IMG/VR virus record: IMGVR_UViG_3300025168_000216
Coordinates: 1-39,232 of that record
Length of the DNA stretch: 39,232 nt
DNA from: a virus
Strand: one strand, 5' to 3'
How positions within the stretch are numbered: the first letter of the stretch is position 1; each line of letters begins with the position of its first letter. Of this stretch, positions 5,775 to 39,114 are shown one piece after another. A model generated the notes under the pieces. The model was not told the origin of the DNA, did not search any database, and worked only from the letters and a program-made list of their open reading frames with translations. Made by a program: the position numbers and the translations under genes.

Positions 5775-6572
5775 ATGAGTGGTGGCGGTGGAAAAAGTGG
5801 AAGTGAAAGTACAGAGACTAGTTTACCTGAATGGCTAAGAGGCCCAGCAGAACGTAATCTAGGTAGAGCTGAAGACGTACAAAGATTAGGTTATATGCCA
5901 TACAGAGGCCCAGAAGTAGCAGCCTTTACACCTAATCAATTGGCAGCAATGCAAAATAATAATGATGCAGCACGTGCATTTGGTTTTGCAGCTCCAGGCG
6001 GTGCAGCTGAAGGTATGCCAACACCTGAACTTTATGCGGGTGGTATAAGAGCATACGACTCAAATGCATTATATGACCAAGCACTCTTAGACACTCAAGC
6101 CTATCAACCTGAGACTTTTGACCAATACAACGCATTATTTGGTAGTAATGTAGCAACTACAGCAAATCCTAACCCATTACCTACTGGAAGACCAAGTGGT
6201 GGTGGCGGAAGTTTTGGTGGTGTTGATCCTAATGAAGTTGCAATACAAAAATTACGTGATGACAGAGCTAATGCTACTAATACGCCAACTGCAATGCAAA
6301 ATTATTTAGATGATAGTCAAATGATTCCTAGTGATCCACGTAAATCGCCAGGTCATCCATCAAATTTTAATTACACGCCAAATTATCAAGCATCTATTCC
6401 TGGCACAACAATGGATGATACAGCAGCTATACAAGCTGGTATGACACCTCAGTATCGAAATACAAATTTAGGTGCAATGGATATTCACTCAGGCAGTAGA
6501 CTTGAACAAAATCTCTCAAACCCTATAGATCAAATGATGGCAGAATATGAAGCAAAACTAGCGGGAAAGTAA
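5775..6572 (+). CDS. Virion/ejection protein, zero-frame product upstream of a -1 frameshift site
   Basis: 265 residues, soluble, Gly/Asn/Pro/Gln-rich. The start GGGGKSGSESTETSLPEWLRG and the helix PAERNLGRAEDVQRLGYMPY resemble N-termini of internal or ejected proteins of marine podoviruses; a linker (GRPSGGGGSFGG) follows at about residues 135-150. The start has AAGGAG about 9 nt upstream. The last codons before TAA contain GGGAAAG, the heptamer used by lambda G/T, and the next ORF is open in the -1 frame across this point. The protein may therefore be made both as a 265-residue form and as a 667-residue fusion. Confidence 0.7.
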   Translation: MSGGGGKSGSESTETSLPEWLRGPAERNLGRAEDVQRLGYMPYRGPEVAAFTPNQLAAMQNNNDAARAFGFAAPGGAAEGMPTPELYAGGIRAYDSNALYDQALLDTQAYQPETFDQYNALFGSNVATTANPNPLPTGRPSGGGGSFGGVDPNEVAIQKLRDDRANATNTPTAMQNYLDDSQMIPSDPRKSPGHPSNFNYTPNYQASIPGTTMDDTAAIQAGMTPQYRNTNLGAMDIHSGSRLEQNLSNPIDQMMAEYEAKLAGK

Positions 6573-6593
6573 ACGGGAGTGTAGATGCCTCCC
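6563..6593 (+). promoter_or_regulatory. Programmed -1 ribosomal frameshift signal (slippery heptamer plus hairpin)
   Basis: G GGA AAG (6563-6569) lies in zero-frame phase as X XXY YYZ and is followed at once by the stop TAA (6570-6572). After a 5-nt spacer, GGGAG (6575-6579) can pair with CTCCC (6589-6593) around a 9-nt loop. Slipping back one base gives the codon GTA at 6569 and an open frame to 7777. The heptamer is the one known for lambda gpG/gpGT. Geometry is seen directly; activity is inferred. Confidence 0.7.
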
Positions 6594-6607
6594 CTGTACC
6601 CAGCCTA

Positions 6608-7777
6608 ATGAACGCCTCACTACTATCAAGTGAGAATGGTATAGGTAACGCTGTTCAGGGTTCAGGTATGGGTGTACCAACATTGCAAAATAGAGGTATA
6701 GGTACTGCAACTCAAAGCTCTGGAATGGGTGTACCAACATTACAGGAACGTGGTATAGGAAATGCACAACAATTTTTCAGTCAGCCAATGATGGCTAGTG
6801 GTTCACCAAATAGCAGAGGTGTAGACACATCATTATCAGACAATATGATTAATACGGTTGGTACTGGTATGGGAAACAACCTTAGAGTTTTAGCAGATAA
6901 AATGCAAAATGTTAATGAAATATATGGATCACCTGATACCCTATCTGTAGACGATAGAATTAAAATTATGAACGGTGAAATGACTGAAGCACAAGCAGAT
7001 AAAATTTTAGCAGATTCACAATTGCCTTTTAGAGATAAAGGCGGTAGTGGATTTTTTAGGTCGCTTGATCCGATTGATATGGCTTTTAGAATGGCAGTTG
7101 GTGGTGACACAACACAAAATTCTATTGATGCACATAGAGCAAATAAAAATTCTAATTTTGGCGATGGTCTTATGGGGTATAAAGATGAAAATATGCTCAA
7201 CCAAGATGGTACAACATATATACCAGTATCAGATATGCCGAATGGTTATCATTTTAAATCAGGTAAAGATGCGGGTAATATGGCTAGAGGTGATTTGACT
7301 CTAGGAGGTATTCCGTTGGCTTTATTAGGTCATGCATATCAACAAGGAACAGGACTTTTAAAAATGGATGGTTCGTATGGCAGAGGAGCAAGATTACAGG
7401 CTTCTGACAATGCTAGAGGTATAGCTGCAAGTGGCAATGCACCAGCACTACAAGGTATATTTGATCGTATGGATGCTGGTAGAGCAAGAGATGAAGTTAT
7501 TAAACAAAGAATAGCTGATGGTACTTTTGTGCCAGGTAAAAAAGCACAAGCATATAATCCACCAAAAGAAACTGTTGCTGATAGGAAAGGGTACACACCT
7601 AAACCCGCAGCTAAAACAAAAGTAAAAGTAGATTATAATAAGAACAAACCTGTGGTAGTTAAAAAGACTAAACCTACTCCAAGAGGCCCACAACCTGTAA
7701 AAGTTACAAGAACAACAGGAAGCAGAGGTGGCAGAGGTAATGTAGGCGCAAGACGTAGATTAACAGGCGGTAGGTAA
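6608..7777 (+). CDS. C-terminal part of the frameshifted virion protein (389 aa if started independently)
   Basis: From the first ATG this is a 389-residue protein, but that ATG has no recognisable ribosome binding site, and the same frame is open upstream to 6551, overlapping the end of the preceding gene. A -1 slip at 6563-6569 adds 13 codons before this Met and gives a 667-residue fusion. The start contains two near repeats of GSGMGVPTLQ-RGIG (about residues 19-50). The C-terminus is very basic (repeated K, R and G after residue 320, ending RGGRGNVGARRRLTGGR), as expected for a DNA-contacting packaged protein. There is no signal peptide. Function is inferred as ejection or internal virion protein. 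Confidence 0.65.
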   Translation: MNASLLSSENGIGNAVQGSGMGVPTLQNRGIGTATQSSGMGVPTLQERGIGNAQQFFSQPMMASGSPNSRGVDTSLSDNMINTVGTGMGNNLRVLADKMQNVNEIYGSPDTLSVDDRIKIMNGEMTEAQADKILADSQLPFRDKGGSGFFRSLDPIDMAFRMAVGGDTTQNSIDAHRANKNSNFGDGLMGYKDENMLNQDGTTYIPVSDMPNGYHFKSGKDAGNMARGDLTLGGIPLALLGHAYQQGTGLLKMDGSYGRGARLQASDNARGIAASGNAPALQGIFDRMDAGRARDEVIKQRIADGTFVPGKKAQAYNPPKETVADRKGYTPKPAAKTKVKVDYNKNKPVVVKKTKPTPRGPQPVKVTRTTGSRGGRGNVGARRRLTGGR

Positions 7778-7795: not shown

Positions 7796-9739
7796 ATGGC
7801 TGGACAAGCAAACGGTGGTCAAGTAACTCAACCTAATTCACTAAATCAAGGTAAGTATGTAGGAAATCCAAACCATATGAATGGAGGCACTATGAAATTA
7901 GGTGGTGGTTTGCCACAACAATCTACTCCTGAATATCTTAAAGGCTTTACTCCTCCACAAATGAATACTATGGATAGTCGGAGGTACACTCTAGATGGTC
8001 AACAACTAACAGGTTCAAGCTCATACATTGGTGCATTAACAAAACATTTAAATGATACAGGTCAAGGACATTTATTAACTGGTGGTACGTATACTCCTCC
8101 ATCTACTACTCAACCTGTGCCAACTCCAATAGCTAATCCAACAACTCCCGCAGTACAACCGCCAAACATTAATACATTAGCTGCTGAAGGAATTAGAGCA
8201 GCTGGAACAGCAACTGGACAAGGATTAGGTTTTACTCCACAACAAGTGGCAGTAGCTGGTAATAGTGCTTCAGTTACACCAACTAACGTAGTAGGATCAG
8301 ATGTTGTTAACGCTAATGTAGTTGGCTCAAATGTTAATCCAGCTCTAAATGCTGTGACAGGTAGTAATGTAGATGCTTCTTTAAATGCTGTAACAGGTTC
8401 TAATGTTGATCCATCACAATATAATGTAACAGGATCAAATGTAGATGCTTCTGCAAATGATGTAACTGGCTCAAATGTTGCTGGTTCTAATATAGCTGCA
8501 ACACAGGTAGGCCAACAAAATGCTAGTCCACAAGTAATGGCAGAGCGTTTAGCTAATACAAATATGGCTCAATACATGAATCCATATACAGATCAAGTAA
8601 TTAGAGCTAATGAAGTTGATGTATTGCGAGGTGCTAACATGGGATTGGACATGCTCGGCGCACAGGCACAAGCAGCGGGTGGATTTGGTGGATCACGACA
8701 TGGTATTGCAATGGGTGAGATTGGCCGAGGTATGGCAGATACATTAGCTAGAACTTCTGCTGGACTAAGACAGGCTGGGTATCAAAATGCTCAACAAGCA
8801 GCTGGTCAAGATATTGCCAATAATTTCCAATCACAAATGGCTAACCAACAAGGCGGTCAATTTGATGTAAATACAAATATGCAAAGACAGTTAGCTAATC
8901 AAGGTGCTAACTTACAAGCATCACAACAGAATCAACAAAACGCATTACAAGCTGGACTTGCAAATCAACAGAACACGTTACAAGCTAGACTAGCGAATCA
9001 AAGTGCTGGAATGCAAGGTCAATTAGCTAATCAACAAAATGCACTACAAGCAGCTGGAATGAATCAATCAGCTGGAATGCAAGGAGCATTAGCTAATCAA
9101 GCGGATGCGCTAAGATCACAAGGCATGAACCAACAATATGGAATGCAAGGACAACTTGCTAATCAAAGTAACGCATTGCAGTCACAAGGTATGAATCAGC
9201 AATACGGTATGCAAGGACAACTAGCAAATCAGGGTAATGCCTTACAAGCGGCTTTAGCTAATCAGTCTGCGGGTATGCAATCAGGTTTAGCAAATCAATC
9301 TAATGCATTAAATAGTGCTTTAGCTAATCAAAACTTTAATTTTCAAGGTCAAAGAGCGAATCAACAGGCTGGTCAACAAGACATTGCAAATAGATTACAA
9401 GCAGCTCTTGCAAATCAAAGTGCGGGATTGTCTGGTAACTCTCAAAGGATGGGCGCAGCTCAACAATTAGGTGGTTTAGCTAATCTAGGATTTAACATGG
9501 GGCAAACGGTAAATAGTAATCTTGCACAACAAGGAGCTATGCAACAAGCACTACAACAAGTAATTCTTGACAATGCTAGAGCTAAGTTTGCTGGTTATAC
9601 AGGCCAACCAGCTGCTGGTATAGGTTATTTAAGTCAGGCTCTTGGTAATACACCGACAACAAATACACAAACACTCACAAAAACACCTGGATTGTTTGAT
9701 TACTTAACATTAGGGGCATCAATGATGCCAGGGAGCTAA
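7796..9739 (+). CDS. Repeat-rich internal virion/ejection protein
   Basis: 647 residues with three parts. A Pro/Thr/Gln-rich N-terminal part is followed by a TGSNV-type repeat array (residues about 165-231). A conserved-looking helical block then spans about 248-345, with the motif AQAAGGFGGSRHGIAMGEIG. Last comes a long Gln/Asn/Ala-rich array of units like LANQSAGMQGQ (about 362-545). The C-terminus returns to ordinary composition. Long Ala/Gln helices are common in proteins that podoviruses eject to extend the DNA channel. An AATGGAGATAATGTA leader precedes the ATG. The role is inferred from composition and position between other ejection candidates. Confidence 0.7.
   Translation: MAGQANGGQVTQPNSLNQGKYVGNPNHMNGGTMKLGGGLPQQSTPEYLKGFTPPQMNTMDSRRYTLDGQQLTGSSSYIGALTKHLNDTGQGHLLTGGTYTPPSTTQPVPTPIANPTTPAVQPPNINTLAAEGIRAAGTATGQGLGFTPQQVAVAGNSASVTPTNVVGSDVVNANVVGSNVNPALNAVTGSNVDASLNAVTGSNVDPSQYNVTGSNVDASANDVTGSNVAGSNIAATQVGQQNASPQVMAERLANTNMAQYMNPYTDQVIRANEVDVLRGANMGLDMLGAQAQAAGGFGGSRHGIAMGEIGRGMADTLARTSAGLRQAGYQNAQQAAGQDIANNFQSQMANQQGGQFDVNTNMQRQLANQGANLQASQQNQQNALQAGLANQQNTLQARLANQSAGMQGQLANQQNALQAAGMNQSAGMQGALANQADALRSQGMNQQYGMQGQLANQSNALQSQGMNQQYGMQGQLANQGNALQAALANQSAGMQSGLANQSNALNSALANQNFNFQGQRANQQAGQQDIANRLQAALANQSAGLSGNSQRMGAAQQLGGLANLGFNMGQTVNSNLAQQGAMQQALQQVILDNARAKFAGYTGQPAAGIGYLSQALGNTPTTNTQTLTKTPGLFDYLTLGASMMPGS
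8288..8488 (+). repeat. In-frame TGSNV coding repeats
   Basis: About seven degenerate units of 9-12 codons with the core V-T/V-G-S-N-V (for example AVTGSNVDASLN, NVTGSNVDASAN). Nucleotide copies differ at synonymous positions, so the repetition is maintained at protein level rather than being a recent slippage product. Confidence 0.7.
8879..9430 (+). repeat. In-frame ANQ/AGMQGQL coding repeats
   Basis: About fifteen imperfect units of roughly 10-14 codons built on LANQ(S/Q)(A/N)... with GMQGQ inserts. Periodic Ala, Leu and Gln predict a long helix. Some adjacent units share over 20 nt and could recombine; others differ at third positions. Confidence 0.7.
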
Positions 9740-11191: not shown

Positions 11192-13243
11192 ATGGCAAAA
11201 ACTTGGATAGAAAACATTAACGAAGCATTAGATGGTGGAAGTGCAGCTGCTACTGAAGGTGAAAGTTTTAGTCCAGAAGCAATGGAAAAAATTGAATCAT
11301 TAGTACCTCAAGTAAATGATGTTGTTGTTCAAGAATCTTTAGCAGAAGTTGAAGATCAAAAGACTAGAGCCTTCGCTCAAGGTCTAACCTTTGGTTTTGC
11401 TGACGAAATGGAAGCCTTTGTTAGATCATTAGCTAATAAAGATGTCAGCTATGAACAACAAAGAGACCAAATACGAAATGCAATGACTGAATATGCAAAA
11501 GCTAAACCTGGTGAAGCATTGGCAATGGAAGTAGCTGGTGCAGTAGTTCCAACAATTGTTTCATTATTTGGAGGCCCAGCTGGATGGGCAAAAGCACTAC
11601 AAACAGTTACAACACTTGGAACAAAATTAGCTGGTAGACAAGGTATAGGAAAGACGGCGCATATGACAGGTAAAGGTACTGCACTTTATTCTGTAGGTGC
11701 TGGAGAGGAAGGATTAGTTGAAGATTTAAAAAACGCTCCAGGTGGCTATGTTTCAGGTCTAACTCTTGGTGCATTACTTTCTGTTGGTGGACAAGCAGCT
11801 GCAGAAGGAGTTGGCAGATTATTAAATACTGAAATTGGCAAAAACTTTACGCCTGTTGTAAGAGAACAAATGGAATTATTAATGCAGAGATCAGGCATGA
11901 CAGCTAATCAAATTATTGAAAGAGTCCAAAATGGCGTATTAATGATTGAAAACGATACATTAAGAGCAGCTATTAAAGCATTATCATCAATGAGTAATGA
12001 TGCTAGTGCAGTTATTACAAAATCAACTAAAGCAAGACCATTAGAAACAAAGAAAGATTTACTTGACGAAATGCAACAGATAACAACTGGAACAAAAGCG
12101 GATAAAAACGTAATTAAACTTTACAATGCAACAGATGACGAATTAATAGAAGCTGAACAGAAAGCATATAAGAGCTTGTTTAAAGATACAAATCCTGAGT
12201 TACCTCCACAAATGGCTCTTAACTTAGAAGATACTATGCGAACATTTCCTGATATGTGGGATGACATGAATAAAATTTATAGCACTAGTAAAGGTGAGGG
12301 GTTAGTTCCTTTCTTTGAAGTTACAGATGGCGTATTGCGTATAATTAAAAAACCAACACTTCAAGATGCTGAACAAATCTTTAGGACTTTAAGAGATATT
12401 CCTAGAATGAATGTAAACAAAGGTATTTTAAGAAATGTAGATGCAGCTGCAAAAACTTTAAAAGCTGAAATAAATCAGTTTAGTCCTGAACTAGCTTTAG
12501 TTAGACAAACAGCTAGTAATACAAGAACAGGAAGAGATGCTTATGAGTATGGTACTAAAATACTAAGCCAAAACCCTGAAAAAATTGCTGTAGAATTAGA
12601 AAAATTTAAACAGACTCCAGGTGCTTTTGACGCTCTTAGGCAAGGATTTATGACTACCTATAAGTTTCGATCTGGATCGAGTAATGCTGCAATCAAAAAT
12701 GTAGCTGAAGAAGGTAAAAACTTTAATGAAATAGTAAGAATGTTGTTTCCAATGGGAAATCAAGCAGACGATATAATCACCAAAGCACAAATTGCTGGTG
12801 GAGCTATAGATACAAAAAATTCAGTTCTTGGTGGTACAACTACAGCAAGAGAACAAGTAGCAGCAGATCAAATGAGTATTGCTACACAAGCTGCTAGATT
12901 AAAAGAAAATCCAATGGATGTTGGAGCTGGTATATCTTTAGTTAGAAATTTAATTAAAACTAGATCGCCAGAAATGAATCCAAAAGATGCACAAAGACTT
13001 GCAGAATTAGTAACATCAAAAAATGCAGACGAAGTTAAAGACGCTATGGTTGATGATGGACAAATAGCTAAATTATTAAAAGTAATTGATATGGCAATAT
13101 ATGGAGCTAGTAGATTATCATCAGCTGGTTCTAAACCTGTTGGAGCGCAATTTCAAGAAGATAGATTAAGTAGTAGTGGACTAATGGATTATAGTCTTGG
13201 TGCAGTCAGCGACAGTATTGGCAACTTAATGCAACAAAATTAA
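11192..13243 (+). CDS. Large internal virion/ejection protein candidate
   Basis: 683 residues. The N-terminal part has the recurrent phage pattern FGFADEMEAFVRSL ... SYEQQRDQIRN (residues about 68-95), then a hydrophobic stretch (EVAGAVVPTIVSLFGGPAGW, about 110-130) that could insert into membrane during ejection. The rest is a long helical body. The FADE-type motif occurs in large injected proteins of many phages. It lies directly upstream of the portal and has AAAGGGG just before its start. It is a likely partner of the two preceding gene products in the ejectosome; this is inference. Confidence 0.6.
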   Translation: MAKTWIENINEALDGGSAAATEGESFSPEAMEKIESLVPQVNDVVVQESLAEVEDQKTRAFAQGLTFGFADEMEAFVRSLANKDVSYEQQRDQIRNAMTEYAKAKPGEALAMEVAGAVVPTIVSLFGGPAGWAKALQTVTTLGTKLAGRQGIGKTAHMTGKGTALYSVGAGEEGLVEDLKNAPGGYVSGLTLGALLSVGGQAAAEGVGRLLNTEIGKNFTPVVREQMELLMQRSGMTANQIIERVQNGVLMIENDTLRAAIKALSSMSNDASAVITKSTKARPLETKKDLLDEMQQITTGTKADKNVIKLYNATDDELIEAEQKAYKSLFKDTNPELPPQMALNLEDTMRTFPDMWDDMNKIYSTSKGEGLVPFFEVTDGVLRIIKKPTLQDAEQIFRTLRDIPRMNVNKGILRNVDAAAKTLKAEINQFSPELALVRQTASNTRTGRDAYEYGTKILSQNPEKIAVELEKFKQTPGAFDALRQGFMTTYKFRSGSSNAAIKNVAEEGKNFNEIVRMLFPMGNQADDIITKAQIAGGAIDTKNSVLGGTTTAREQVAADQMSIATQAARLKENPMDVGAGISLVRNLIKTRSPEMNPKDAQRLAELVTSKNADEVKDAMVDDGQIAKLLKVIDMAIYGASRLSSAGSKPVGAQFQEDRLSSSGLMDYSLGAVSDSIGNLMQQN

Positions 13244-13255
13244 CTGGGGATATAA

Positions 13256-15355
13256 ATGGCGAAGCTAGAAAAAATGACAGATGATCAAGTACAAGACATT
13301 GCTAGTGAAGCAGTTACAAGTGCAATCAGTTTCATTGAAAGTGAGATTGCCGAGGATAGGATAAAGTCTCAGCGTTATTTTGAAGGTGAGACAGATATAG
13401 GACAAGAAGCTGGTAGAAGTAGAATTGTAGCTACTAAGGTTCGTGATACTATTAGATCAATCAAGCCAAGTCTAATGCGTGTGTTCTTATCGTCAGAAAA
13501 TGCAGTAGAGTTTATTCCTACAAGTCAAGATGATGTTAAGGGTGCTGAACAAGCCACAAAATATTGTAATCATCGTTTTAGTGAAATGAATGGCTACACA
13601 TTGTTAAATGATGTGATTCATGATGCTTTAGTCAAAAAAACTGGCGTATTAAAAGTGTGGTGGATGGATGAGGCAGACGAAGAATTTTTTAATTTTTCTA
13701 ATGTCACCGAAGAAGAGATGGCTGCTATTGTTAATGAAGATGATGCAACAGTAATTGAGCAATCTGTAGAAATGTCAACTATGATGAATCCTGAAGGCAT
13801 AGAAATGGAAATGCCACAGTACACACTCAAGGTTAGCTACAAAAAAGAGAAAGGAAAGCTATGTATTGAAGCCTTACCACCTGAAGAATTTTTAGTTGAT
13901 CGTAATGCTAAGTCTGTTGAAGATGCTTATGTAGTTGCCCACAGAACAGAGATGAGAGTAAGTGATCTTGTGCAAATGGGTTACGAGTATGACATGGTAT
14001 CAGAACTGTCTGGTTTATCTTCTGATGACACGTATACAGATTCTGAAGCATTTGAGCGTAAAGGCTATGAGCAAGACGAAGAAGCTAATACAGCTGATGT
14101 ATCAATGAAACTAGTAGCAGTTACTGAAGCCTACATGAAAATGGACAAAGAAGGTACAGGTATAGCTTCAATGTATCGTATTCTTATGGCTGGTGGTGAT
14201 AACAAACTACTAGAGTGTGAAGAGTGGGGTGAAGTGCCATTTGCAGTCTTTGAAGTTGATCCTGAACCTCATACTTTTTTTGGGCGTAGTGTTGCTGATC
14301 TTATTATGAATGACCAAGACTCTTCTACTGCTATGCTTAGAGGTATGATGGACAACGTAGCGTTAACAAACTCGCCAAGACAGGGTTATGTGCAAGGCCA
14401 AGTTAACGTAGATGATTTAATGAACAATGAAATTGGTGGACTGGTTAGAATGAAATCTCCAGCTGCCTTAGTAGATATAGCAACACCTTTTGTAGCTGGG
14501 CAAGTATTAACAGCAATGCAATACATGGATAACACTATTGAAGGTAAGACAGGAGTATCTAAAGCCTCTCAAGGACTTGATCCTGAAACTTTACAAAACA
14601 CATCAGCAACTGCTGCACGTTTACAGGCACAACAAGGTTCTGCTCAGATAGAGGTGATGGCTCGAAATATTGCCGAGGGTGGCATGAAGCGTTTATTTAA
14701 GCTAATGTTAAACCTTTTAGTAGAAAATAGTTGTGAAGAGACTATGATGCGTTTATCAGGTGAATTTATTCCTGTTGATCCACGGTCATGGAATACAAGC
14801 ATGGATGTATCAACTAATGTTGGTTTAGGAACTGGTAAAGAAGACACTAAACAAATGGCATTGACTCAAGCCTTAGAAATGCAAATGCAAATTTGGAGTA
14901 CCTATGGCAGTTCTAATGGATTAGTCACTATGACAGGAATTAGAAATACCCTGGGTGATATGTTAGCTATTGCTGGTATAAAAAATGTTGATAGATACTT
15001 TAATCCAATGACACCTGAAACAGAACAAATGTTAGTGCAACAACAAGAACAATTAGCAGCTCAACAACAAGAGACTGCAATGACTGATGCAGAAGCTCTA
15101 GTACAATCAGAGCAATACAACGCTGATAAACAAATGGAAATGCAACAACTGAAATTGCAGATTGAAGCACAAAAAGCTATTGCTATAGATGATAGAGATC
15201 GAGACAAAATGGATCAAGACCTACTAATAAAAGCAGCTGAAATACTTGGTAAATACGGTACTGCTGTAGATACTGCAAATATTAAGAAGGCGCAAGAAGA
15301 GGCAAGATACCCTGATGCCACACCATCACAAGCAGTTAGTGGAGGTAGATTTTAA
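13256..15355 (+). CDS. Portal protein (P22-like)
   Basis: 699 residues, close to P22-type portals. Recognisable segments are the start with AISFIESEIAEDRIKSQRYFEG, VATKVRDTIRSIKPSLMRVFL (about residues 62-82), HDALVKKTGVLKVWW (about 120-135), the PPEEFLVDRNAKS wing region, and DLIMNDQDSSTAMLRGMMDN (about 345-365) near the crown/stem. The C-terminus is Gln/Glu-rich and coiled. The protein forms the dodecameric DNA channel at one vertex. It is followed with a 1-nt overlap (TAATG) by a small gene and then scaffold and major capsid, the usual order. The start has a GGGGA box. Confidence 0.85.
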   Translation: MAKLEKMTDDQVQDIASEAVTSAISFIESEIAEDRIKSQRYFEGETDIGQEAGRSRIVATKVRDTIRSIKPSLMRVFLSSENAVEFIPTSQDDVKGAEQATKYCNHRFSEMNGYTLLNDVIHDALVKKTGVLKVWWMDEADEEFFNFSNVTEEEMAAIVNEDDATVIEQSVEMSTMMNPEGIEMEMPQYTLKVSYKKEKGKLCIEALPPEEFLVDRNAKSVEDAYVVAHRTEMRVSDLVQMGYEYDMVSELSGLSSDDTYTDSEAFERKGYEQDEEANTADVSMKLVAVTEAYMKMDKEGTGIASMYRILMAGGDNKLLECEEWGEVPFAVFEVDPEPHTFFGRSVADLIMNDQDSSTAMLRGMMDNVALTNSPRQGYVQGQVNVDDLMNNEIGGLVRMKSPAALVDIATPFVAGQVLTAMQYMDNTIEGKTGVSKASQGLDPETLQNTSATAARLQAQQGSAQIEVMARNIAEGGMKRLFKLMLNLLVENSCEETMMRLSGEFIPVDPRSWNTSMDVSTNVGLGTGKEDTKQMALTQALEMQMQIWSTYGSSNGLVTMTGIRNTLGDMLAIAGIKNVDRYFNPMTPETEQMLVQQQEQLAAQQQETAMTDAEALVQSEQYNADKQMEMQQLKLQIEAQKAIAIDDRDRDKMDQDLLIKAAEILGKYGTAVDTANIKKAQEEARYPDATPSQAVSGGRF

Positions 15356-16619: not shown

Positions 16620-17579
16620 ATGGCACAGCCAAGTAATACGCTAGACAGTTATGACGTTAAAGGTATTCGTGAGGACTTATCAAATGTTATATATGATGTA
16701 AGTCCTGAAGAGACTCCTTTTTACTCATCACTACAAAAAACAAAAGCAAGTAACACTTATCATGAGTGGCAGACAGATGCTCTTAGATCATCGGCTGCTA
16801 ACGCTCATATTGAAGGAGATGCAACTGTTGCAGAGGCAAGAGGTGTAACTACTCGTTTAGGTAACTACACGCAAATCTTTAAAAACGCTGTAGTAATTCC
16901 TGATACAGACGAAGGACTCGATAAAGCTGGTCGTTCTGCTGAGATGGCATACCAAGTGCTTAAAATTGCTAAAGAGCAAAAGCTAGACATTGAGAAGGCT
17001 TTGTTTGCTAACAACAAGTACGAGGCTGGTTCTTCATCAGCTGCACGTGAACTAGCTGGTTTAGGTGCTTACATGAAAACTAATGTAACAAACATTGGTG
17101 GATCAGGTGGCGCAAATCCAACTGGAAGTGTACCAGGAAATACAGCTCGTACAAATGGAACGCAGACAGCGTTTACTCAAGCTGACTTCGATGCTTGTAT
17201 GCAATCTATTTGGACAAACGGTGGTAAGGCTAGTTCAGTTTACTTATCTGCTTTCCAAATGAATGTTGCTTTAGGCTTTACAGGTAATAACAACCAAAGA
17301 TCAACTGTTAAATCAGAAAGTCAAAAAGTTGTTAAGCACATGGATGTATACGTTACTCCGTGGGGAACTGTAGAGTTTATTCCTAGCAGAGAGAACCAAT
17401 CACGTGATGTTTGGATTCTACAAGACGATATGTTTTGTGCAGCTATCCTTAGACCTACTAAGAATACTGAACTTGCTAAGACTGGCGATAACACAACACG
17501 TCAAGTGCTAACTGAATTGACTCTTGTTTCTAAAAACGAGAAAGCTTCAGGATTAGTAGCTGATTGTTCTACTTCATAA
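16620..17579 (+). CDS. Major capsid protein (SU10-type, DUF5309)
   Basis: 319 residues. The start SNTLDSYDVKGIREDLSNVIYDVSPEETPFYSSL is followed by WQTDAL (about residues 48-53), TRLGNYTQIFKNAVVIPDT, and the helix KIAKEQKLDIEKALFAN, a pattern I recognise from the SU10 major capsid family. The C-terminal half contains the F-x-S-ENQSRDVWILQDD strand region. This is the HK97-fold shell subunit. GGAG lies upstream of the ATG. A strong terminator follows, so this gene closes the head block; high expression is expected. Confidence 0.85.
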   Translation: MAQPSNTLDSYDVKGIREDLSNVIYDVSPEETPFYSSLQKTKASNTYHEWQTDALRSSAANAHIEGDATVAEARGVTTRLGNYTQIFKNAVVIPDTDEGLDKAGRSAEMAYQVLKIAKEQKLDIEKALFANNKYEAGSSSAARELAGLGAYMKTNVTNIGGSGGANPTGSVPGNTARTNGTQTAFTQADFDACMQSIWTNGGKASSVYLSAFQMNVALGFTGNNNQRSTVKSESQKVVKHMDVYVTPWGTVEFIPSRENQSRDVWILQDDMFCAAILRPTKNTELAKTGDNTTRQVLTELTLVSKNEKASGLVADCSTS

Positions 17580-36234: not shown

Positions 36235-37510
36235 AGTAGCTCAGATAGAATTACCACCTAAATTAGTTCCTGTATTTGAGGGTGAGGCAAGGAGTCGTTT
36301 TTCGTTTGGAGGCAGAGGATCAGGAAAAACCAGAAGTTTTGCGTTAATGACAGCAGTTTATGGTTACAGAATGTCTATGGCTGGAAAGCGTGGTCAGATA
36401 CTTTGCGCTAGAGAGTTTATGAATAGCCTTAGTGAGTCATCATTGGAAGAGATTAAATCTGCAATACTTTCAGTTCCGTGGTTAGCTGACTTCTATGAAA
36501 TATCAGAGCGTACTATTAAAAGCAGAGATGGTAATATTCAATATACGTTCTCAGGTCTTAGAAGATCATTAGACTCAATTAAATCAAAGGCTCGTATATT
36601 GTTGTGTTGGGTAGATGAGGCAGAGGCATTAAGTGGCAGAGCTTACGATGTATTAATACCAACTGTCCGTGAAGTAGACTCAGAAATATGGATAACCTGG
36701 AATCCAGAGTCTAAGTATTCAGCAACACATGAAAGATATAGAGCCAATCCACCAAAAGATTCTAAAGGTGTAATGCTTAACTATACAGACAACCCCTGGT
36801 TTCCTGATGTCTTAGAACAAACAAGAATAGAAGACAAAGAAAAAAGACCTGATATGTATGAGCATATATGGGAAGGTGGTTATCTTATTTATAGTGAAGG
36901 TGCTTACTATGCAGCAGAAATGCGAAGAGCAAGAGATGAGGATCGGATAACTAATGTAGGTTATGACAGAGGTAAAGGCGTTGTAACCAGTTGGGATTTA
37001 GGCGTAGGTGATTCAACTGCCATATGGTTTGCACAGTTTATTGGCACAGAAGTACATCTAATAGATTACTATGAGGCATCAGGTGTTGGCCTGGAGCATT
37101 ATGCTAAAGTGTTACAGGATAAAGGTTATGTGTATGAACAACACGTTTTTCCTCATGACGTTAGAGTTAGAGAGCTTGGATCAGGCAAGAGTCGTATTGA
37201 AACATTAGAAGGATTAGGCATCAGAGATATAGAGATAGCACCATCATTACTCATAGACGATGGCATACAATCAGTTAGAGCTATGCTAGATAAGTGTTGG
37301 TTTGATGCAGAGAAGTGTGAGAAGGGTATAGATGCAATAACAAACTACTCACGTGATTGGGATGACAATGGTAAAACATGGCGTATGAGACCATCTCATA
37401 ACTGGGCATCACATGGCAGCGATTCATTTCGTTACCTGGCAATTGGTTATCAACCTTATAATGAGTCATGGGATAAACCTATTAGAAGAAATATGAAGGG
37501 AATTGTATGA
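36227..37510 (+). CDS. terL: Large terminase subunit
   Basis: 427 residues from the ATG at 36227 inside the TerS stop region; a TTG start at 36215 would add four residues. Walker A is FGGRGSGKT (residues 28-35) and Walker B is LLCWVDEAEAL with D130/E131. The nuclease domain starts at TSWDLGVGDSTAIW (D257), continues with IDYYEASG, and ends at HGSDSFRYLA, giving the three acidic metal ligands. This is the ATP-driven packaging motor and headful nuclease. The stop overlaps the next gene by 4 nt (ATGA). Confidence 0.9.
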   Translation: MSEVAQIELPPKLVPVFEGEARSRFSFGGRGSGKTRSFALMTAVYGYRMSMAGKRGQILCAREFMNSLSESSLEEIKSAILSVPWLADFYEISERTIKSRDGNIQYTFSGLRRSLDSIKSKARILLCWVDEAEALSGRAYDVLIPTVREVDSEIWITWNPESKYSATHERYRANPPKDSKGVMLNYTDNPWFPDVLEQTRIEDKEKRPDMYEHIWEGGYLIYSEGAYYAAEMRRARDEDRITNVGYDRGKGVVTSWDLGVGDSTAIWFAQFIGTEVHLIDYYEASGVGLEHYAKVLQDKGYVYEQHVFPHDVRVRELGSGKSRIETLEGLGIRDIEIAPSLLIDDGIQSVRAMLDKCWFDAEKCEKGIDAITNYSRDWDDNGKTWRMRPSHNWASHGSDSFRYLAIGYQPYNESWDKPIRRNMKGIV

Positions 37511-39114
37511 AAGGTATATTGGCTAATATGTGGAATAACAAAGAGAGTGTAGTTGGTGGACTCTTTGATATGTTTGATGCACCTAAGAAAGAAGCAAAGC
37601 TAGGTGCAGACTTAGATTATGGTTTATTAGCTAGTAACTTTGCACCTGATATGAAAGAAACAGGCGAAGAAATAAAAACAATGGTTACAAACCCACGTGA
37701 AACTGTTAAAGCAATTGCTGATTTAGGTGGTGGAGCAATAGGAAAAATAACTCCTGATTTTATTAAAACAGGATTATTAAAAGCAGCACCTGACAATCGA
37801 ATAACAAGTGAAAGAACATCTAAGATGGCTTCTGATGCATGGACAGATATAGTTGCTACTCATGGTAGTGTAGATGGCTTTAAGAAATTTGCACAAGAAA
37901 ATCCATTTGAAGCAATGCTTGAACTTACTGGTGCTGGATTAGTAGCTAGACAAGTTAAGAACGTAACAGCTCCAGTTGTAATGGATGCTATTCAAATAGC
38001 TGAAAAGAATGGATTAATGGATCAGATACGCAAAGTCGGTTCGTTACCTGTTGGATTATCCATGAAAGATATAAGTAAGATGAATCCATCTGAACTTAAA
38101 ATGTACATGGCATCACAAGATATATACAATGAATATTTAGGTAAAGTTGATCCAAACTATGTATTAGGACAACCGTTAGCAACACAATCTGATGCTGGAA
38201 AATTAGCTACACTTAAAACAGAAATAATAGGTCAAGATCAAGACTTAGTTACACCATCAGGAATAAAATTAAGTGATTTAGAAGGCAGAGTTTTAATGGG
38301 TTTTGAAAGTGATAGGACAGATGCTGGAGGTACTTTAACTAAAGTAAATGATTTTACGGTTAACACAAAATTATTTGGTGGTATTAAATTTCAGTTATTA
38401 ATAGATATGATGAAAAGAGAAGACATATGGGCAAGTGACAAAGCTCCACTTGATAAAATAGCAAAACAAGCTGAACTTGTTAAAGCTATAGAAGGCGAAT
38501 ATCCATTAGTAACTCAATACATAATGCAACCACAAGGAAGTAACTTTGCTCACATGACACAACAACTAATGATGGAAGTTTATCAACAAGCGTTACCAAT
38601 AGCAAAGAAAAATAAAATAAACAAAGAAATTAAAAAACTTGTACCTGAATGGAAAGGCATAGATGCTGATGATTTACCACTTGAGTTATCAAAAATTAAA
38701 GGTGCAACAAGAAAAAAGATTAACTTAATCTTAGGAAGATCAGAATTTACTAATGAAGGATTATCATTAGCTGAAACAGGATTAGCTTTGTCTGATAAAA
38801 CTTTAGTCAATGCACCAAGAGGGCAAATAAGTGGCTTAATTAGTGAACCTAACTTTGGATTAAATCCAATAGAAGCTGGTTCAACACATTATTCTTATCC
38901 TTATAATATGAAAGGTGGAGTTTTAGGGGAATTAGATCGACCATATAATTGGTTTGACTTAATCAGTCATAACCCTATAAACATGAAAGGTAGAATATAT
39001 GATCCAAAAAATCTAAAACCTAAAGACTTTAGAGCTGCACAAACTAATATGCCTTCTTTTGTTAAAATTACTGATAAAGTTTTAAGAGCTGTTGATGACC
39101 AGGGATTACTATAA
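37507..39114 (+). CDS. Variable post-terminase virion/ejection candidate, allele B (complete)
   Basis: 535 residues starting KGILANMWNNKESVVGGLFD. Compared with the left-end allele: near identity from MFDAPKKEAKLG for about 45 residues, divergence for about 40, strong similarity again around THGSVDGFKKFAQENPFEAM and VKNVTAPVV, then low similarity with scattered matches (KLSDLEGRVLMGFESDRTDAG against the VLPGRVV region) and a similar last 20 residues. This mosaic pattern suggests recombination or selection acting on the middle and end. It is soluble with no enzyme motif. The role as packaged or ejected protein, possibly against host defence, is inference. Confidence 0.75.
   Translation: MKGILANMWNNKESVVGGLFDMFDAPKKEAKLGADLDYGLLASNFAPDMKETGEEIKTMVTNPRETVKAIADLGGGAIGKITPDFIKTGLLKAAPDNRITSERTSKMASDAWTDIVATHGSVDGFKKFAQENPFEAMLELTGAGLVARQVKNVTAPVVMDAIQIAEKNGLMDQIRKVGSLPVGLSMKDISKMNPSELKMYMASQDIYNEYLGKVDPNYVLGQPLATQSDAGKLATLKTEIIGQDQDLVTPSGIKLSDLEGRVLMGFESDRTDAGGTLTKVNDFTVNTKLFGGIKFQLLIDMMKREDIWASDKAPLDKIAKQAELVKAIEGEYPLVTQYIMQPQGSNFAHMTQQLMMEVYQQALPIAKKNKINKEIKKLVPEWKGIDADDLPLELSKIKGATRKKINLILGRSEFTNEGLSLAETGLALSDKTLVNAPRGQISGLISEPNFGLNPIEAGSTHYSYPYNMKGGVLGELDRPYNWFDLISHNPINMKGRIYDPKNLKPKDFRAAQTNMPSFVKITDKVLRAVDDQGLL
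37556..37682 (+). repeat. Internal partner of the left-end repeat
   Basis: This is an exact 127-nt match to the first 127 bases of the window, inside the second allele of the post-terminase gene. Downstream the copies diverge quickly, and homology returns in patches. Confidence 0.8.

Follow-up and report, generated by a model that had tools for sequence, protein, structure and literature searches.

Two overlapping reading frames at positions 5775-7777 of a virus record of 39,232 bases (37.3% G+C; the whole stretch is referred to below as the window) raise the question of whether they are expressed as two separate proteins, as one protein whose frame has been broken by a sequence error, or as shorter and longer versions of a single protein, connected by a ribosomal slip. 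The features on which the answer turns are the following:

5775-6572, + strand: short-form ORF in the 0 frame, 265 amino acids, the N-terminal domain of a probable DNA-ejection protein
6563-6569, + strand: slippery heptamer G GGA AAG, in phase, kept at 30 of 66 distinct homologous sites
6570-6572, + strand: 0-frame stop TAA, which opens the 5-nt spacer TAAAC (6570-6574)
6575-6593, + strand: downstream hairpin, GGGAG (6575-6579) pairing with CTCCC (6589-6593) around a 9-nt loop
6551-7777, + strand: ORF in the -1 frame, giving a 402-residue extension that would continue after ...LAGK as VNGSVD... and end in ...RRRLTGGR
7796-9739, + strand: next gene, with its own GGAG, related to the C-terminal part of the same ejection-protein family

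Inspection of the sequence shows that the ORF at 5775-6572 ends in ...GCG GGA AAG TAA, and the in-phase heptamer, the stop codon, the 5-nt spacer and the GGGAG/CTCCC hairpin reported in a preliminary description of this DNA are all found at 6563-6593 as described. The sequence also confirms that no stop interrupts the -1 frame of the downstream ORF from 6551 to 7777 and that its first ATG (6608), which is preceded by CCCTGTACCCAGCCTA, has no Shine-Dalgarno (SD) sequence. The predicted trans-frame fusion comprises 265 + 402 = 667 amino acids, in agreement with the 265- and 667-residue forms proposed previously. For the window taken alone, chance is possible and the evidence is only suggestive. 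GGGAAAG occurs twice, compared to 3.4 expected occurrences, the local fold (78 nt) is unexceptional (z = -1.1), and the stem itself, of 5 bp, has a shuffle p of 0.025. In the main genes of the window, 11.7% of the codons end in G and AAG accounts for 23% of the lysine codons; among the 28 Gly-Lys dipeptides encoded by these genes, a single one is written G GGA AAG, namely the site at 6563-6569. The codons that make up the hairpin stem are rare as well (GGG, 4% of Gly; CCC, 1.6% of Pro; TCC, 1.2% of Ser). The possibility that the hairpin at 6575-6593 is a terminator was rejected because no T-run follows it.

The window encompasses SU10-type portal, capsid and adaptor genes (Pfam PF23899, PF17236 and PF24175, respectively) and, judged by this gene content, the phage is SU10-type and short-tailed. 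The product of the ORF at 5775-6572 (P0001, hereinafter the N part) is probably the N-terminal domain of a DNA-ejection protein, as proposed in the preliminary description, and this assignment is supported indirectly, through relatives: L037 matches PHROG 4287 ('DNA ejection protein') over positions 1-158 (E 4.5e-5), L015, L016 and L017 match it strongly along their length, and the annotation of the phiM5 homolog (L017) reads 'detected in phage particle proteome'. The N part of the window has no direct profile match to PHROG 4287. The product of the next gene (7796-9739) is related to gp18 of Octadecabacter DB virus 2 (L013; BLASTP E 5e-12) and, since gp18 in turn matches positions 87-387 of PHROG 4287, this lineage seems to have divided an ancestral ejection protein between two genes, with the frameshift site located at the end of the N-terminal one. 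The 7796-9739 protein contains many GSNV and ANQ/GMQ repeats, is 71% identical to the product of an L045 gene over 519 residues, and had no match in a tblastn search of the phages collection at E 1e-3. In the same collection, Octadecabacter DB virus 2 is the only relative of the N part, the extension (P0002) has none, and no cultured GGGAAAG-bearing relative was found; a genome scan for relatives yielded neither a prophage nor a cellular one. Two further ORFs, at the opposite ends of the record (15-1625 and 37507-39114), share approximately 55 near-identical residues near their N-termini (39% overall) and could be either tandem paralogs that flank the circular joint or a residual assembly overlap.

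Searches with both halves of the locus matched IMG/VR contigs and were widened by profile searches; relatives of the N-terminal protein are encoded on 320 contigs, 80 loci were kept, and 66 distinct sites were compared. In the first IMG/VR relatives, the two halves are offset by -1 frame; conservation covers GCGGGAAAGTA, the hairpin and the length of the spacer, whereas the flanking proteins have diverged (46-82% identity). Of the 30 distinct sites with GGGAAAG in phase, 26 have it directly before the stop codon (TAA, TAG or TGA) and 4 one codon earlier. The codon that precedes GGA in the 30 sites is ATG, GCG, TCG, ACG, GGG, GTG, AGG or TTG; these eight codons specify eight different amino acids and all end in G, as the heptamer requires. 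The first downstream GGG begins 5 nt past the heptamer in 28 of the 30 sites and 4 nt past it in the remaining 2. When the stop lies one codon further on (L075, L105, L106 and L111), the hairpin is still 5 nt from the heptamer, and the spacing therefore tracks the heptamer rather than the stop codon. The stems differ in sequence yet pair: GGGAG/CTCCC, GGGAGC/GCTCCC, GGGGC/GCCCC, GGGGT/ACCCC, GGGGTGG/CTACCCC, GGGGGTTGA/TCAACTCCC and GGGGAGTTG/CAACTCCCT.

The background set consisted of the 635 distinct ORFs of at least 100 amino acids in all fetched loci, 56 of the family and 579 others. Among the family ORFs, 24 of 56 end in GGGAAAG and 5 of 56 in AAAAAAG (29 together), compared to 0 of the 579 non-family ORFs that end in either motif. 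When the entire viral collection was scanned for the DNA pattern, with no protein information used, the matches belonged mostly to this family, with three additional family sites (L055, L065 and L066) and two chance matches devoid of an upstream gene (L054 and L064). Because the homologous sites share kinship, these counts are not independent observations and overstate independence. Nevertheless, the signal in the window is not due to chance because it is retained by the relatives. The preliminary description had looked to homologs to separate a genuine two-frame layout from a base-calling indel; the heptamer and the two-frame layout persist in them, and the few one-frame forms carry the same N and C parts.

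Other arrangements occupy the same place in a part of the family. Eleven relatives possess A-runs (AAAAAAG or about A9-A11) instead of GGGAAAG, mostly without a hairpin; runs of about A9-A11 are found in L032, L035, L036, L090, L092, L102 and L110. In at least three relatives, both parts are fused in one frame: in L034 and L076, an A12 run joins the same N part to the same extension without a change of frame (the extension of L032 is 89% identical to that of L034 over about 340 residues). In L077, of the short type, the frame likewise stays open across an A-run; the same run leads to TAG in L092. L094 may be a further in-frame form, albeit a weak one (E 0.001). The A-run is kept in the fused genes (L034:1825-3852, L076:2483 and L077:3687), where slippage would yield the short form. 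Seventeen tree rows without the signal are scored 'none', among them L077, which is fused in frame, and L094, which possibly is; with these two in that class, the site states require at least 10 changes in the tree of the N domain; the different solutions therefore have been exchanged repeatedly. The early-branching group in the midpoint-rooted tree has no extension, and its stop overlaps or precedes the start of the next gene. In the unextended L045, L048, L078, L091 and L117, the N part ends in a stop codon that overlaps the ATG of the next gene (TAATG/TGATG), which suggests translational coupling instead of frameshifting, and in Octadecabacter DB virus 2, gp17 (12577-13230) and gp18 (13231-14136) abut in the same frame (TAA ATG).

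In addition to the heptamer and the hairpin, the family displays an SD-like stretch. The anti-SD pairing upstream of the heptamer averages -5.0 kcal/mol for the family; randomly chosen in-phase positions in these genes average -1.3 (sd 0.5), and none of 500 such controls is as low. The pairing peaks sharply with the 8-mer ending 7-10 nt before the heptamer. The score of the window itself is weak (-0.2 kcal/mol), with no convincing stretch, and the hairpin is modest; the efficiency in this phage thus may be low, and the element of the window might lie at the low end of the range.

The comparison of relatives supports the interpretation as a -1 frameshift, and on these comparative grounds, GGGAAAG is very probably the site of a functional programmed -1 ribosomal frameshift. 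Most ribosomes would stop at TAA 6570 and release the 265-amino-acid protein, whereas a fraction, hindered in its progress by the hairpin 5 nt downstream, would re-pair from GGA-AAG to GGG-AAA; the slipped ribosomes would continue as GTA AAC GGG AGT... to 7777 and produce the 667-amino-acid protein. The comparison establishes the signal, the two-frame layout and the coding character of the extension; we infer both the slippage in vivo and its efficiency. In the GGGAAAG relatives, the trans-frame junction is predicted to give a peptide such as ...AKLAGKVNGSVDASP.... Both forms would enter the virion as short and long ejection proteins in a set ratio. The simplest explanation for two lengths would be a fixed proportion between short and long ejection subunits.

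If the gene were in truth one continuous frame, broken in the record by a base-calling or assembly indel, it would resemble L034, L076 and L077, in which such a frame does exist. However, the same layout recurs at 30 distinct sites on many separate contigs, always with the same motif and an in-frame stop, and GGGAAAG is not a long homopolymer; by virtue of these comparative data, the indel reading is already refuted, and its probability is negligible. Expression of two separate proteins without any slip, the downstream ORF being translated from its own start (such as ATG 6608) through coupling or reinitiation, would be compatible with the presence of this in-frame ATG in the window, which L003, L058 and L027 have at the identical codon, as well as with the stop-to-ATG junction of gp17 and gp18 in Octadecabacter DB virus 2. 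Nevertheless, we consider it highly improbable: ATG 6608 is not preceded by an SD sequence, and the first ATG in the extensions of the relatives is scattered (codons 15, 19, 20, 46 and 68) or missing altogether (L037, L038, L040 and L046). The extensions of L038 and L040 contain one TTG only, at codon 25, and the 55-codon extension of L046 has neither ATG nor GTG nor TTG. Separate starts also would leave the in-phase heptamer, the 5-nt spacing and the in-frame fusions unexplained. Slippage of RNA polymerase rather than of the ribosome is a plausible mechanism in the relatives with A-runs, most of which have no hairpin downstream, but there is very little likelihood that it yields both forms here, given that the runs in the window are only three nucleotides long and that the hairpin, the spacing and the SD-like stretch of the GGGAAAG class act on ribosomes.

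A different kind of alternative accepts that the frameshift works and holds that the short form alone matters, with the extension representing a decaying or regulatory tail. Indeed, the extension is a low-complexity sequence, with a length that varies from about 53 to 542 residues across the relatives; searches of Pfam and PHROG profiles detected no match for either the N part or the extension, a PDB profile search gave none, and the mean AlphaFold pLDDT of the extension is 36 (51 for the N part), too poor for a fold search. Against this reading, pN/pS is below 1 in all eleven pairs of relatives (0.18-0.69 for the extension, similar to the N part), the long-type extension has a conserved C-terminal RTTGSRGGRGNV...GGR, and the natural fusions keep the extension. 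Judging from this pattern of substitution, the extension is coding and under purifying selection, and the tail interpretation is unlikely. Recurrent short peptide motifs are found in N parts and short extensions of the family, for example in L037-L049: GNPHMGK closes the 0-frame product, ANPHSS closes the extension, and SPGHPSN is internal to some N parts; these might be alternative C-terminal tags.

With regard to the biological meaning of the programmed frameshift, we put forward, with about even confidence, the conjecture that a lineage of uncultured phages with the SU10 module requires both a short and a long ejection protein, that the three-part cassette is selected for this purpose or else is replaced by an A-run or a fusion, and that the ratio of the two forms sets the assembly of the ejection apparatus. 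If true, this ratio would be the short-tailed counterpart of the G/GT ratio of lambda. The probable frameshift itself adds a new target gene to the phage virion genes subject to programmed frameshifting. The family, with its 320 contigs, is large and shows the signal being held, swapped for another type or bypassed by fusion; the resulting natural set of elements, with or without the hairpin and the SD-like stretch, is suited to measuring the contribution of each. Automatic annotation would miss the extension or call it a separate gene with a false start. The question that arises is why an ejection protein should come in two lengths.

Frameshifting at GGGAAAG is documented in the major capsid genes of SU10, phiEco32 and Privateer (PMC4281155, PMC7881722, PMC9965538) and likewise in that of YF01, all of them SU10-type/Kuravirus phages. 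The extended capsid protein is backed by mass spectrometry in SU10 and Privateer (PMC4281155, PMC7881722), although conflicting evidence for SU10 is reported in PMC9965538. These systems resemble the present one in the heptamer near the 0-frame stop, the long -1 extension and the short tail, and the capsid module (SU10-type portal, capsid and adaptor) is common to them and the window. They differ in that the extended product is the major capsid protein there and that of a probable ejection gene here; near the end of the capsid gene of the window (16620-17579), no X XXY YYZ heptamer occurs. Although the preliminary description knew of no account of such a setting, GGGAAAG frameshifting in a virion gene of a podovirus is already described for the SU10-type capsid genes, so that only the target gene is new; no report of a frameshift in a gene for an ejection or internal virion protein was found in the literature searched.

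The lambda gpG/gpGT system uses the same heptamer, GGGAAAG. There, a -1 shift gives rise to short and long forms of the tail assembly chaperone from one start (PMC5009743), but the gene and its position are different, the present site belongs to an SU10-type module rather than a tape-measure module, and the hairpin and the SD-like stretch are characteristic of the family studied here. Neither P0001 nor P0002 shows homology to tail assembly chaperones in Pfam and PHROG, and no match to a tape-measure gene was detected among the genes scanned, the site being located in the SU10-type short-tail module. Because of the lack of chaperone homology and the different gene context, the site, as judged by these profile comparisons, falls outside the lambda G/GT chaperone family. 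Gene 10A/10B of T7 and T3 is another case of a podovirus frameshift that gives a minor extended virion protein (PMC5009743); the heptamer, the gene and the stimulator all differ from those at the present site. The initial label of a lambda G/T-type signal gives way to another comparison, the family-wide architecture (SD-like stretch, heptamer and hairpin) being closer to cassettes of the dnaX/IS type. In E. coli dnaX and the IS3-family cassettes, an SD-like stretch about 10 nt upstream is combined with a slippery heptamer and a hairpin about 5 nt downstream; dnaX slips at A AAA AAG, and its product is made shorter by the shift. Elements with both an SD-like stretch and a hairpin can far exceed the few per cent efficiency of lambda. 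The dnaX and IS3-family elements reside in cellular or transposon genes, unlike the phage sites described here, but share with this family the same three-part layout.
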